64,000 nucleotides of DNA from Sphingobacterium thalpophilum. Lineage in GTDB: Bacteria > Bacteroidota > Bacteroidia > Sphingobacteriales > Sphingobacteriaceae. The DNA lies in contig CAMBMM010000003.1 in assembly GCA_945868825.1 (NCBI GenBank), positions 1 to 64,000 on the forward strand, in the 5' to 3' direction. This document shows positions 11,895 to 35,699 of the stretch, piece by piece. Each line of letters begins with the position of its first letter. Positions within the stretch are counted from its first letter, which is position 1. The position numbers and the translations under genes were made by a program. The notes under the pieces are model-generated. The model was given only the letters and a program-made list of their open reading frames with translations. It was not told the DNA's origin and did not search any database.

Positions 11895-11933
11895 CAAGTA
11901 AGCCCCGGTAATTATCGGGGCTTACTTGTTTTT
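11895..11933 (+). terminator. Rho-independent terminator after pdhB
   Basis: A perfect 13-base-pair stem (CAAGTAAGCCCCG with CGGGGCTTACTTG) around an 8-base loop is followed by GTTTTT. The T-tract is on the plus-strand side only, so it serves pdhB rather than the convergent Lrp gene that ends at 11932. Confidence 0.85.
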
Positions 11934-12408
11934 AAGCTATTTGAATTTGCCGCTTTATGCTTTCTTCTAAAGAGATAAAAGTTTCGGTGCGTTGTATGCC
12001 GGGTGCGGCTTGTATGTCATCGTTTAGCACTCGGCGTAAGTGGTTGGTATCTTTACAAACAATTTTAGCGAACATGCTGTAAGCCCCAGTACAATAATGC
12101 AGTTCCACAATTTCTTTCACTTCCTTTAGGCGTTCTACCGCCTCGTTATACTTCGATCCCTTTTGCAGAAAAATACCCAAGAATGCACAAATATCGTAGC
12201 CAATTTTTTGGGCATTTACATTTAACTGCGAACCCTCAATAATCCCCATGTCTTGCATCTTTTTCATCCGAACGTGCACCGTTCCACCAGAAATGATTAA
12301 TCTTTTGGCAATCTCGGTGTAAGGAATGGTGGCATCGGCCATTAAAATGGATAAAATCTCCTTATCTAAATTGTCAATTTCTAAATTTTGAGGCTTTTTT
12401 TCTGTCAT
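11932..12408 (-). CDS. Lrp/AsnC family transcriptional regulator
   Basis: Amino-acid-responsive DNA-binding regulator. The N-terminal winged helix-turn-helix (about residues 10-60) includes DKEILSILMADATIPYTEIA and the recognition helix region SGGTVHVRMKKMQDMGII. The C-terminal RAM ligand-binding/oligomerisation domain (about 70-150) includes YDICAFLGIFLQKG and the glycine-containing turn HYCTGAYSMFAKIVCKD. 158 residues is the usual size. It is divergent from the putative small RNA transcribed from about 12519, so its own regulatory region overlaps that promoter; many Lrp proteins regulate the adjacent divergent gene, which makes the small RNA a candidate target (inference). Confidence 0.92.
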   Translation of the reverse strand: MTEKKPQNLEIDNLDKEILSILMADATIPYTEIAKRLIISGGTVHVRMKKMQDMGIIEGSQLNVNAQKIGYDICAFLGIFLQKGSKYNEAVERLKEVKEIVELHYCTGAYSMFAKIVCKDTNHLRRVLNDDIQAAPGIQRTETFISLEESIKRQIQIA

Positions 12409-12481: not shown

Positions 12482-12513
12482 TTTGCAAAAAAAATCACTT
12501 TCATTTATATTTG
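12482..12513 (+). promoter_or_regulatory. Bacteroidota-type promoter of the putative small RNA
   Basis: TTTG at 12482-12485 and TATATTTG at 12506-12513, separated by exactly 20 bases, match the phylum's -33/-7 consensus (TTTG, 19-21 bases, TAnnTTTG). It is the best promoter match in the window. It reads rightward into a region without a plus-strand gene, with a terminator about 140 bases downstream. Confidence 0.75.
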
Positions 12514-12518
12514 TATCA

Positions 12519-12678
12519 ATGATTCGAAAGTATCATTCATCCGTGGGAAGTTTTTAACAGGTGAGAAAAGTCAAAAGCTTTTCTAGAGGTTCGATTCCTT
12601 ATCCCATAGCAACCTTATTCTTTAGGTTTATAATTGGTTAGTTTAAAAAAGTCCCAGACGCCCGTCAGGGACTTTTTT
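12519..12678 (+). ncRNA. Putative stand-alone small RNA with tRNA-like fold
   Basis: The 339-base gap between the Lrp gene and the amidohydrolase gene has no open frame but holds a complete transcription unit on the plus strand: the 12482-12513 promoter, several hairpins, and a terminator at 12645-12678. Structures seen: AATGAT/ATCATT (12518-12537); a closing helix GTGGGA (12543-12548) with TCCCAT (12602-12607); inside it AGAAAAG/CTTTTCT with a 7-base loop (12564-12584); and GAGG-TTCGATT-CCTT (12586-12600), whose loop is a canonical tRNA T-loop. A further AACCT/AGGTT hairpin lies at 12612-12629. The enclosed 65-66 bases look like a tRNA without a proper D-arm. A decayed tRNA gene is the main alternative to a regulatory RNA. 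I do not recognise a known RNA family. Start and end are inferred. Confidence 0.55.
12645..12678 (+). terminator. Rho-independent terminator of the putative small RNA
   Basis: AAAAAAGTCCC pairs with GGGACTTTTTT (11 base pairs) around a 12-base loop that itself contains GAC/GTC. GTCCC is at 12651-12655, GGGAC at 12668-12672 and the T-run at 12673-12678. No plus-strand protein gene lies upstream, which supports a non-coding transcript. Confidence 0.8.
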
Positions 12679-12699: not shown

Positions 12700-12728
12700 A
12701 AAAAAAGCCCCCCGAATATCGAGAGGCT
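12700..12728 (-). terminator. Rho-independent terminator after the amidohydrolase genes
   Basis: Read on the minus strand, AGCCTCTCGA pairs with the downstream TTCGGGGGGCT region (10 base pairs with two G-T wobbles, loop TAT) and is followed by a run of T. It lies 20 bases after the stop of the 12748 gene and ends the two-gene amidohydrolase unit. Confidence 0.75.
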
Positions 12729-12747: not shown

Positions 12748-14016
12748 TTATTTTACGCCGTATTTTTCTTGATAACGCTTATACAATTGCTTGTGCAAAT
12801 TGTCTAGGTTGATAGTTCTGCCTTGTATAAAGGCATTTTCTACTTTATTACCTAGCATATCCAAGGCATCGCCACCCGAAATAAATAGGGTTGCATCTTT
12901 ACCTACTTCTAAGCTACCGGTGCTTTTATCAATTCCTAATATCTTGGCTGTATTTAGGGTAATAAGAGCCAAGGCTTGTTCTTTGCTTAAGCCATAGGCT
13001 GCCGCAGTACCCGCCTGAAAAGGCAAGCTACGTATACGGTCGACACGATTATTTCCACCTAGTGCTACCAATACGCCTGCGTCTTGTAAAATCTTTGGCA
13101 ATTCGTAAGGTAAGTATACATCATCGTCGTTTTTATCGGGTAGTGCTTGGGTTTCGGCAATAATTACCGGAACCTGATTTTCTTTTAATATATCGGCTAT
13201 TAAATACGCTTCGCTAGCACCAACAAGTACTAGGTTTAGGCCAAATGATTTGGTAAAGTTTATAGCCTGTAACATACCTGTTGCCTGGTTTACATTTACA
13301 AACAGCTTTTTGCTACCGTCAAACAAACCCTTTAAGGCTTCGAAACGGGCGTTGGTAACTGCAGGTTTTGTTAGTTGAGCATAGGCCTTTGCTTCGGTAA
13401 AATAACTGTTTAGTTGATCTAAGGCCTTTTGTCCGGCTTCGGCAGCCGGCCCTGTACCTTGGGTGCTCGGCCAATTTACGTGTACAGCCATATCTTTTTT
13501 GTAAGCGGCATCTTCCCAATTCCAGGCATCAAGCGTAACTACCGATGATTGTCCTGGAATTAAATCTCCTAGTGGAGTAGGCTGTGCCATCAAAATTCCA
13601 TTGGAACGGGTGGTTGGAATGACTTTTGAATCGGTATTAAACGCAATAAGAGAACGAACGTGTGGATTAATTTCTCCCACTTCGGTTCCATCATCGGTAC
13701 TACGAGCACCCAATTCAATTTCTACCAAACCTAAAATGGTGTTTGGTACAATAAATCCTGGGTAAACGTGTTTTCCGCTAGCATCAATGGTATTGGCACC
13801 GGCAATGCTCGGTGCTTCCCCTTCGCCTAGTGCGGTAATTTTACCTCCTGCAAAGGCAATAAACCCATTGTTAATTACAAGCCCTGTTGCGGTGTGTATG
13901 GTGGCATGGCTAATAATTGTAGGCTTGCTTTGTGCTTTGCCTGGTAATATGTTGGCTTGTCCGAAACATAGGGTGCTTAACACCAGTGCGACAAGACTTA
14001 AACTATATCTTTTCAT
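12748..14016 (-). CDS. Secreted amidohydrolase-family protein lacking the HxH metal motif
   Basis: Amidohydrolase-superfamily protein, 422 residues. The longer frame could begin at 14079, but the Met at 14016 (MKRYSLSLVALVLSTLCFGQ) gives a clean signal peptide and begins 17 bases after the upstream gene's stop; the longer start would overlap that gene. The N-terminal beta-sandwich (TIISHATIHTATGLVINNG, ALGEGEAPSIAGANTIDASGKHV) and C-terminal block (ALITLNTAKILGIDKSTGSLEVGKDATL) are typical. At the site where active members have PGFIDxHTHLG this protein reads PGFIVPNTILG, so both metal His are gone, and no SDxP-like Asp motif is seen (VALGGNNR instead). It is probably a non-catalytic partner of the 1007-residue neighbour. 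Location is periplasmic or beyond. Confidence 0.8.
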   Translation of the reverse strand: MKRYSLSLVALVLSTLCFGQANILPGKAQSKPTIISHATIHTATGLVINNGFIAFAGGKITALGEGEAPSIAGANTIDASGKHVYPGFIVPNTILGLVEIELGARSTDDGTEVGEINPHVRSLIAFNTDSKVIPTTRSNGILMAQPTPLGDLIPGQSSVVTLDAWNWEDAAYKKDMAVHVNWPSTQGTGPAAEAGQKALDQLNSYFTEAKAYAQLTKPAVTNARFEALKGLFDGSKKLFVNVNQATGMLQAINFTKSFGLNLVLVGASEAYLIADILKENQVPVIIAETQALPDKNDDDVYLPYELPKILQDAGVLVALGGNNRVDRIRSLPFQAGTAAAYGLSKEQALALITLNTAKILGIDKSTGSLEVGKDATLFISGGDALDMLGNKVENAFIQGRTINLDNLHKQLYKRYQEKYGVK

Positions 14017-14033
14017 CTTTTTTTCTAAGTTTT

Positions 14034-17000
14034 TTATCTGTTGTTGTTTACAAATTGATCTTCTTCTAAGGTTTCGCATTCGTATAAACGCTGACGTTGC
14101 ATGCTTGGACGTTGGGTAGCACTACCCCCATTTTTGGCATCCATCATTTTTTGGATAATGCGTCCTTTCTCGGCACTCATTGTTTTTAGACTTTCGGTAT
14201 TCTTGTTCAAATCCCAATATTGTATACCATCTACAAAGGTTTTTTCTGCTAAGGCATAAACAGATAATGGGTTGGCAGACCAGAGTACCAAATCGGCGTC
14301 TTTCCCTACTTTAATACTACCCACACGATTATCAATGTGAAGCATTTTAGCTGGGTTTAAAGTAACGAGTTTAAAGGCTTCTTCTTCGCTCATACCACCG
14401 TAAGTAATGGCTTTTGCTGCTTCTTGGTTTAAACGACGGGCCATTTCGGCATCATCGGAATTAAAGCCGGTTACTACGCCCATTTGGTGCATTAAGGCTC
14501 CATTGTACGGGATGGCCTCGAGTACTTCGCTTTTGTAGCCCCACCAATCGGAGAACGTAGAAGCGGCGATACCTCTTGCAGCCATTTTATCGGCCATTTT
14601 ATAACCCTCTAAAATATGGGTAAAGGTGTTTATTTTAAAGCCCATAGAATCGGCAACGTGCATGAGCATGTTAATTTCCGATTGTACGTAAGAGTGGCAG
14701 GTGATGAATCGTTTTTGATTTAAAATTTCTACTAAGGCATCTAATTCTAAATCTCTACGAACCGTATTTCCTTTTACGGCACGTGCTGCTTCGTATTCTT
14801 TAGCACGGGTAAAGGCATCTACATATACTTGTTCTACTCCCATGCGGCTTTGTGGGAAACGACTGGCATTGGTTGGGAAATTTGATGAATTACTTTGTTT
14901 CACATTTTCACCCAAGGCAAATTTAATGTAGCCATCACTTCCTTCAAATTTTAATTCTTCGGGCGTTTTACCCCAACGTAATTTAAGTACTTGAGTTTGT
15001 CCACCAATGGCGTTGGCCGATCCGTGTAAAATATGAGAAGTAGTTACCCCACCGGCTAATTGGCGGTAAATGTTTACGTCTTCTGAATTGATGATATCGG
15101 CAATGCGTACTTCTGAAGTTACCGATTGCGCCCCTTCATTAATACCACCCGATCCGGCAATGTGAGAGTGTTCGTCAACAATACCTGGCGTTAATTGTTT
15201 GCCTGTAGCATCAATTACTTTAGCGGTACCGGCAGGCAAGTTTTTCCCAATTGCTTTTATTTTTCCATTTTCAATTAGCACGTCGGTATTGGGTAAAATA
15301 CCCTCTTTTTCATTGGTCCAAACCGTAGCATTTTTAAACAATACGGTTTCTGCTTTAGGTGCTTCGGTATAACCGAAAGCGGTAAACGGATAAATAACAC
15401 TTCCTACAACAGGCTTTTGTGTTTCTTTTTTCGCGGTTACAGCAGTGGCTTTTACCTCTTCTTGGAAGGTGGCTATCCATTTGCTACTAGTACCGTCGGT
15501 GGCAATGGCGTCTCCTTTAAATACCAATGGGTTGGTTGCAGCAATGAATCCACTTAAGCGAATGATTGCGCTTGGTTTCTTTTTAAGATCGAAGTATACG
15601 TTTACTAAATCACCGTTACGGCTAAAGGTGGCTTTTGTTTTTAAACTATCAGTTCCTTGACGCTCTACACTTACATCGTATGCATTGGCGGTGCCGGCTA
15701 CTTTTAGTTTCAACTCACCAACACCCCCTAAGCTAAGGGCATAGGTGCCACGTAAATCTTTCACATCCATTTTAGAAACCACATATTGGCTACCCTCTAC
15801 CCAGTTTTCATAAATGGCACTTTCTTTTTTAAATACCGCATCAGAAGTGATAATAAAGTTGGCCAATTTACCTGGGGCTAGGCTGCCTACCTGATCGGCT
15901 ACGCCCAATAAACTGGCAGGCACTTCAGTAAGTGATTTTAAGGCTTGCTTTTCGCTTAACCCATGATCAATGGCGGTGCGAATGTTTGCCAAGAAATCTT
16001 TGCTACTCTCTAAACCGTATGAGGTAAGGGCAAAGCGAACACCCGCTTTTTCTAAAGCTGCTGGGTTGCTTGGCGCCAATTCCCAATCTTTTAATTGACT
16101 TAAGCTGATGTTCCGAGCATCTACGGGATTTTCTACATCGTAGGGTTTCGGAAAGTTTACTGGAACGATAAAACTACCGCCGGTTGCTTTAATAGCGGCT
16201 ATCCGTTGGTATTCTTTTCCGTCGGTTTTAAAGATGAATTGTTTGCCAAATTCATCACCAATCTTGTCGGCTCTTAATACGCTTAAGGCATCGTTAACCT
16301 CAAATAGTTGAGGTAGGCTTTGTGTTTTATTAAATTCGTCTAAAGAGATATTAAACTCTTCTTTCTGATTTTTATACCATTGTGCATCGTAATAAGTTTG
16401 GCGCAATAAGGAAATAGATCCCATTAATGATGAGGGATAATTGTTGTTGGAGCTGCCTTTATTAAAGGAGTATTGCGCAGCGGCTACATCTTTAAGAAAC
16501 GCATTATTTTCTTTTTCATCATTTAAGCTAACCACGGACGAGGTGCCTCGGGCTATTCCATCGCGATGGATAGCTTGTACAGCTCCAAATCCGTTTTTCT
16601 TTAATTCCTCAGCTTTCTTCGCATCTACGGTAAACATAGATTTTACAGTTATTTCTGGTCTGATCGCTTCGTTCCAACTGTAAGCTCCAACTTTTGTGCT
16701 GGTAAATACTGCAGAACGACCTTGGCGCCCAAATCCGCCTGCTTGTGGGCGGCTAGCTTCTGAGAGGCCATAGCTACTAAAGGCATCGATAAATGAAGGG
16801 TAAATAAATTTTCCTTTCAAATCAATTACAATATAACCCTTAGGTATGGTTAGGGTTTGACCAACGGCTTCAATTTTACGATTTTTTACCAACAGCGTTC
16901 CGTTGGTAATGGTTTGATCGGCATTGAGCACAATGGTGGCATTGGTAAATGCATACAAGCCTGGGCGCTTATCCCACGACCCATTTACTGGGTAGGTTTC

Positions 17001-35522: not shown

Positions 35523-35699
35523 TTTTTCTGATTTAAACGTGTTTAACTAAATAAAGCAGAAAATGGAGAGGTTAAATTGGCTGAAAAAACGTAGGGGTTT
35601 TAGCAATTTTTTTACGTGGTTGCAAGCAACTCAAATCGATCCACTTTTTGCATCACAAAAGTACAACAATTTTTAAATTCTTAAATATTTGGCCTTAAT

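Follow-up and report, generated by a model that had tools for sequence, protein, structure and literature searches.

A Bacteroidota tRNA-like RNA family with marks of aspartate loading and asparagine conversion, and its degenerate member beside an AsnC-like gene in Sphingobacterium thalpophilum

Introduction

In E. coli, the gene for AsnC lies divergent from the asparagine synthetase gene asnA. The tRNA fold is used outside normal decoding by tmRNA and other non-decoding tRNA-like RNAs. In tRNA-dependent asparagine synthesis, AspRS and GatCAB act on tRNA-Asn, as in Deinococcus, Thermus, and Bdellovibrio, and a survey left open why GatCAB persists where AsnRS and GlnRS suffice (PMC4206432). The main Asp determinants are G73, G34, U35, C36, and C38, with G2-C71 as a minor one; the U1-A72 pair steers GatCAB amidation of Asp-tRNA, and G1-C72 and U20a block amidation (PMC9976931).

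Here we describe an RNA predicted in a 64,000-nucleotide stretch of Sphingobacterium thalpophilum DNA (the window) and a family of intact relatives. The intact RNA would share aspartate loading and the U1-A72 amidation mark with tRNA-dependent asparagine synthesis, and retention of GatCAB despite AsnRS and GlnRS is common to both. The known pathway uses a decoding tRNA-Asn and a non-discriminating AspRS, whereas the RNA described here is distinct from tRNA-Asn: it bears the Asp triplet GUC, never has A at position 37, and has an AsnC-like gene at its side, and its variable arm is very long. With tRNA-Leu(GAG), its nearest relative in sequence, the intact RNA shares the D-arm sequence GGUGAAACUGGYAGACAC and some of the anticodon arm; it differs by G73 in place of A73, a U1-A72 first pair, the loop UUGUCUC in place of UUGAGGG, and a greatly enlarged variable arm. 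In both this arrangement and that of E. coli asnC-asnA, the regulator gene would diverge from whatever provides asparagine synthesis, with an RNA replacing the enzyme gene here. Like tmRNA, the window copy lacks a D stem; in contrast to tmRNA, the RNA has no tag-encoding part, and at the gathering score it matches neither tmRNA nor any other Rfam family.

Results

A candidate RNA gene between promoter and terminator signals

The features assigned at the locus are listed below by window position, with the basis of assignment in parentheses.

11932-12408, minus strand: gene for the AsnC-like regulator, oriented divergently from the RNA (Pfam, NCBIfam, and closest solved chain)
12482-12485, plus strand: promoter -33 element TTTG (sequence; layout common to most relatives)
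12506-12513, plus strand: promoter -7 box TATATTTG, 20 bases 3' of TTTG (sequence)
12519-12536, plus strand: 5' leader hairpin (fold)
12542-12609, plus strand: degenerate tRNA-like domain (fold, family model, and paired changes in congeners)
12560-12561, plus strand: D-loop remnant GG (AACAGGUGAG; family D loop AAACAGGCAGA for comparison) (congener alignment)
12564-12584, plus strand: hairpin AGAAAAG-UCAAAAG-CUUUUCU, replacing the anticodon and variable arms
12585-12601, plus strand: T arm AGAGG-UUCGAUU-CCUUA (fold, congener alignment)
12610-12644, plus strand: 3' module CAACCUUAUUCUUUAGGUUUAUAAUUGGUUAGUUU, near-invariant among congeners
12624-12642, plus strand: core of the 3' module, AGGUUUAUAAUUGGUUAGU
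12645-12678, plus strand: intrinsic terminator with loop GCCC and T6 (fold, congener alignment)
12748-14079, minus strand: amidohydrolase-like gene, the other neighbor of the RNA

The original prediction placed a promoter, a region free of protein genes, and a Rho-independent terminator between two genes of the opposite strand, and each of these elements was recovered. The promoter motif taken alone is insufficient, being at chance level in the window (2 matches versus 2.8 expected from shuffles), but it becomes convincing because relatives carry the same promoter upstream and congeners keep the -7 box. By pattern match, a Bacteroidota-type promoter precedes 64 of 88 distinct family copies, and the copies lacking the pattern are mostly downstream members of tandem pairs. 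Spacing to the -7 box would put the transcript start at ∼12519. The terminator stem comprises 11 base pairs (AAAAAAGTCCC at 12645-12655 with GGGACTTTTTT at 12668-12678), with inner GAC/GTC pairing and the C-rich loop GCCC, and the open reading frames of at least 20 amino acids that overlap the RNA span only 24 to 57 codons with TTG or GTG starts. Folding of the predicted 160-nt transcript gave a z score of -2.8 relative to shuffles, 2 of 200 of which folded equally well. The RNA matched no family of Rfam 15 at the gathering score, and ARAGORN reported no tRNA in it. Whole-genome searches located the unit beside the same regulator in five congeners, where the -7 box, the stems, the 3' module, and the terminator recur; the candidate RNA gene is thus supported by conservation.

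Two further elements were noted in the window. A terminator-like stem on the minus strand (12709-12726), of a type repeated elsewhere in the genome, occupies the gap that separates the RNA from the amidohydrolase-like gene, and a SAM-II riboswitch (35590-35650, minus strand) is the window's sole Rfam match at the gathering score.

The window RNA is a degenerate tRNA-like RNA

The acceptor strands of the window RNA (CGUGGGA at 12542-12548 and UCCCAUA at 12602-12608) begin with a broken C-A pair, and G73 is kept at 12609. The D stem is gone, and the hairpin at 12564-12584 has a 7-bp stem and a 7-nt loop without the GUC triplet; its equivalents at loci L004 to L006 differ in sequence and retain the hairpin. 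Paired changes were seen among congeners in the acceptor, hairpin, and terminator stems. The matching RNA in other genera of the window's family is a full cloverleaf. The family covariance model (described below) matched the window at 12541-12610 with 17.7 bits (E of 9e-5 in 1.3 kb), the best match of the region, and it scored the two closest congeners at 22.6 and 25.1 bits and the others at 9 to 12. The window copy has the promoter type and the divergence from an AsnC-like gene and lacks the intact cloverleaf with D stem, the GUC triplet, and U1-A72. At the level of sequence, these comparisons establish it as a degenerate member of a Bacteroidota tRNA-like RNA family. The earlier reading of the locus as a small RNA is supported for the window copy, and it had missed the tRNA origin, the ancient regulator pairing, and the degenerate end state.

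Intact members form a family nearest to tRNA-Leu

Alignment of 23 sequences (A1) supported a cloverleaf, 97.3% of its cells being paired and 21 cells being changed on both sides in comparison to 4.7 in shuffles. A covariance model built from these sequences turned up additional copies in several more families of the class, and f68 is the single family outside the class in which it did so; the sampling of loci was driven in part by the RNA itself. Among 53 distinct cores, the D stems read GUG/CAC, AUG/CAU, ACG/CGU, or UUG/CAA, and the anticodon stems covary. Model matches that score ∼55-61 bits and measure 83-89 nt come from ordinary tRNAs, and all five such regions examined contain tRNA-Leu(GAG); sequence comparison places the family nearest to tRNA-Leu. 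Neither ARAGORN nor Rfam 15 (gathering score) detected any of the family loci tried, and searches of the literature turned up no report of an RNA of this kind.

Intact members have a variable region of 37 to 121 nt, a variable base 33, and U, C, or G at position 37; they do not keep to the U33, purine 37, and normal variable arm of a decoding tRNA, and ARAGORN calls none of those tried. The variable base 33, the absence of A at base 37, and the long variable region argue against decoding, which by this RNA would place Asn at Asp codons.

Five tRNA-like copies stand in tandem ∼150 bp apart on contig 33 of genome G009 (104503-105219), and five others, each with a module and terminator, are spaced 370 to 400 bp apart at locus L114 (3977-5560). 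On contig 10 of genome G016, which has GatB, one copy is apparently split as if after a rearrangement, with its 5' half (326869-326920) and 3' half (356038-356097) ∼29 kb apart. Two candidate signals were discarded: a MicC match in a permissive Rfam scan of the window locus was weak (23.7 bits against a cut-off of 90), and reading CACCUCCUU, which lies in the anticodon arm in the window's family, as an anti-Shine-Dalgarno-like sequence was dropped because other families substitute compensatory changes there.

Invariant positions combine aspartate and amidation marks

All 53 cores have U1-A72, G2-C71, U3-A70, G73, U35, C36, and C38, and 50 of them have G34. C74 is also invariant, acceptor pairs 4 to 7 vary, and G10 occurs in only 30 of the 53. 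Judged as AspRS substrates, the intact members carry G73, G34, U35, C36, and C38 and do not conform at G10 and G1-C72. For GatCAB, they present U1-A72 (53/53) and a D loop GGCA, with C and then A after G18 G19 and no U20a. The SerRS pattern is absent, since A72 in all members and U-A at 11-24 in most exclude C72 and C11-G24. Host tRNA-Asp starts with G1, and host tRNA-Asn and tRNA-Gln start with U1; host tRNAs therefore never combine the Asp triplet with the first pair favorable to GatCAB, as this RNA does. Intact members bearing marks for both Asp loading and conversion to Asn may thus be dedicated asparagine-making or asparagine-sensing RNAs.

The partner gene is AsnC-like

The original prediction had the RNA divergent from a regulator of the Lrp/AsnC family, which was borne out and can be narrowed. 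The protein has Pfam AsnC_trans_reg and HTH domains, scores 178 bits with the NCBIfam AsnC model (cut-off 227) in comparison to 59.5 for Lrp, and has E. coli AsnC (2cg4) as its closest solved chain; by these scores and the closest structure, it is AsnC-like rather than Lrp-like. Every intact copy counted beside a homologue of this regulator (158/158) is divergent from it, with up to three copies in tandem, and the layout spans several families plus one outside the class. The pairing of RNA and regulator is ancient. Of the 133 fetched loci that hold an intact copy, 105 include an AsnC-like gene in the stretch retrieved; at many of the others just 1.5 kb on either side was read, and some intact copies are clearly at loci without AsnC. 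In copy-free genomes of the class or phylum, a close homologue of the regulator was absent, or more distant homologues, in those read, had no such RNA upstream.

The 3' module is a later addition

In the fetched loci we counted 163 distinct copies of the 3' module with at most 2 mismatches, 62 of which follow a tRNA-like domain. Among named Sphingobacteriaceae records, many more copies, several of them preceded by a separate promoter, occur in Sphingobacterium, Parapedobacter, Olivibacter, and Mucilaginibacter. In genus g16 and genome G025 the AsnC locus has the module but no tRNA-like domain. The module is absent behind the tRNA-like domains of other families; the module and terminator were added within the window's own family. 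The likely history runs from the tRNA-like RNA only, through tRNA-like RNA with module and the degenerate form with module found in the window, to the module only. The C-rich terminator loop and the conserved core, which is predicted to be single-stranded, suggest that the module may act as the base-pairing part of a small RNA.

The stand-alone modules (L013, L027, L033, L045, L059, L074, and others) begin ∼22 bases behind a -7 box, and their promoters often contain a dyad such as GTGTA-N6-TACAC, as if sharing another regulator. Pairing of UGGUUAG in the module with CUAACCA in the variable arm, although possible in many copies, was set aside as inconsistently kept and absent from predicted folds.

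Intact copies co-occur with GatB

GatB was found in 55 of the 56 genomes that carry an intact copy and in 12 of the 46 that do not, as raw counts that ignore kinship. In the first set these numbers were 14/14 versus 0/9 (class genomes) and in the second 41/42 versus 12/37; G016, with its split copy, was excluded, and absence of a copy was judged by BLAST or by an initial scan in which few candidates were scored in each genome. Every class genome tested has AsnRS, and nearly all have GlnRS (not G242 or the incomplete G001), so GatCAB is dispensable for decoding there. Among genomes with both enzymes, GatB occurs in 11 of 11 with a copy and 0 of 8 without. Intact copy and GatB were lost together in genera g1, g4, and g16 and within g21, where G068 and G081 have both and G025 has neither. 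GatB was absent from the five genomes of the window's genus that were tested (G000, G001, G003, G004, and G005).

Exceptions exist in both directions. G031 (L165), a draft rated complete, has an intact copy and undetected GatB, and two congeners have both. In 12 genomes with GatB, no copy was detected. One of them, G074, failed a prediction taken literally: GatB is present and no copy was found in the 1.68 Mb read (93% of the genome). AsnRS and GlnRS gave no match in that 93% with approximate E. coli sequences as queries.

Among copy-free genomes, genus g16 and G305 encode AsnA, and an AsnB of ∼560-580 amino acids with one common match pattern occurs in G020, G008, G103, G196, and G057. Of genomes with a copy, G009, G395, G344, and G266 had no AsnB above the cut-off and no AsnA, G242 has AsnA as well, and several encode AsnB-like proteins. 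The complementarity between the RNA and asparagine synthetases is suggestive and not strict.

Discussion

We think it rather probable, from sequence comparison, that the intact RNA provides non-decoding support for conversion of Asp to Asn and that the window copy is a degenerate small RNA acting through its 3' module. AspRS would load the intact RNA with aspartate, GatCAB would convert the bound Asp into Asn by amidation, and AsnC, as a sensor of asparagine, would control transcription of the RNA. The RNA would then be a dedicated support on which asparagine is made, or its level sensed, in a tRNA-dependent way. Given its position divergent from AsnC and its putative role, the intact RNA would occupy the genomic place of E. 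coli asnA. After GatCAB loss, the anticodon-like and D arms of the window copy would have decayed, and the copy would persist beside AsnC as a small RNA whose 3' module does the work, with base pairing as the likeliest mode of action. Against this explanation, bacterial tRNA-Asp has G1-C72 and G10, whereas the RNA has U1-A72 throughout and G10 in 30 of 53 cores, as read from the alignments. Also against it are the 3 of 53 cores lacking G34, the G031 copy without GatB, the 12 genomes with GatB and no detected copy, the AsnB-like proteins that several copy-bearing genomes also encode, and the loci without AsnC.

The same identity set and AsnC partner would suit an Asp-accepting sensor or decoy that, bound or charged by AspRS, reports Asp/Asn status with no net synthesis, its Asn state perhaps serving regulation or non-ribosomal transfer. 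The AsnB-like proteins of several copy-bearing genomes fit this role, which we regard as unlikely yet worth keeping in view; the U1-A72 amidation mark and the tie to GatB suggest conversion to Asn, though they are compatible with a sensor too. That all members are base-pairing small RNAs, with the tRNA fold as a stabilizer or a processing site for RNase P/RNase Z, draws on the conservation of the 3' module, its ability to stand alone, and the loss of identity marks in the window copy, for which it coincides with the explanation we favor. As an account of the whole family it is improbable: in other families no module follows the tRNA-like domain, and a stabilizer needs no invariant acceptor and anticodon bases.

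The large variable arm, the tRNA-Leu-like body, and G73, which host tRNA-Ser also has, bring to mind a SerRS substrate or a Ser/Leu tRNA mimic, but C72 and mostly C11-G24 are missing for Ser and A73 for Leu, and the invariant U35, C36, and C38 and the GatB link would be left unexplained, so that this seems very doubtful. Hardly any weight attaches to the window element being a dead tRNA fragment or a chance pairing of promoter and terminator. Its fold is degenerate, ARAGORN calls no tRNA, and the promoter motif is at chance level, but five congeners have it at the same locus with paired changes and a near-invariant 3' module.

Extended to the whole family, the favored explanation is of a Bacteroidota RNA with a tRNA-Leu-like body that supports asparagine formation by AspRS and GatCAB under AsnC feedback and was recycled through its module after GatCAB loss, the window copy being an intermediate; we put the chances of this broader account at about even. 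If true, it would give a reason for GatCAB in many Bacteroidota, where the enzyme is superfluous for translation given AsnRS and GlnRS. It would also provide an amino-acid-making RNA other than a decoding tRNA, standing at the genomic place of an asparagine synthetase, and a route from such an RNA to a regulatory small RNA after enzyme loss.
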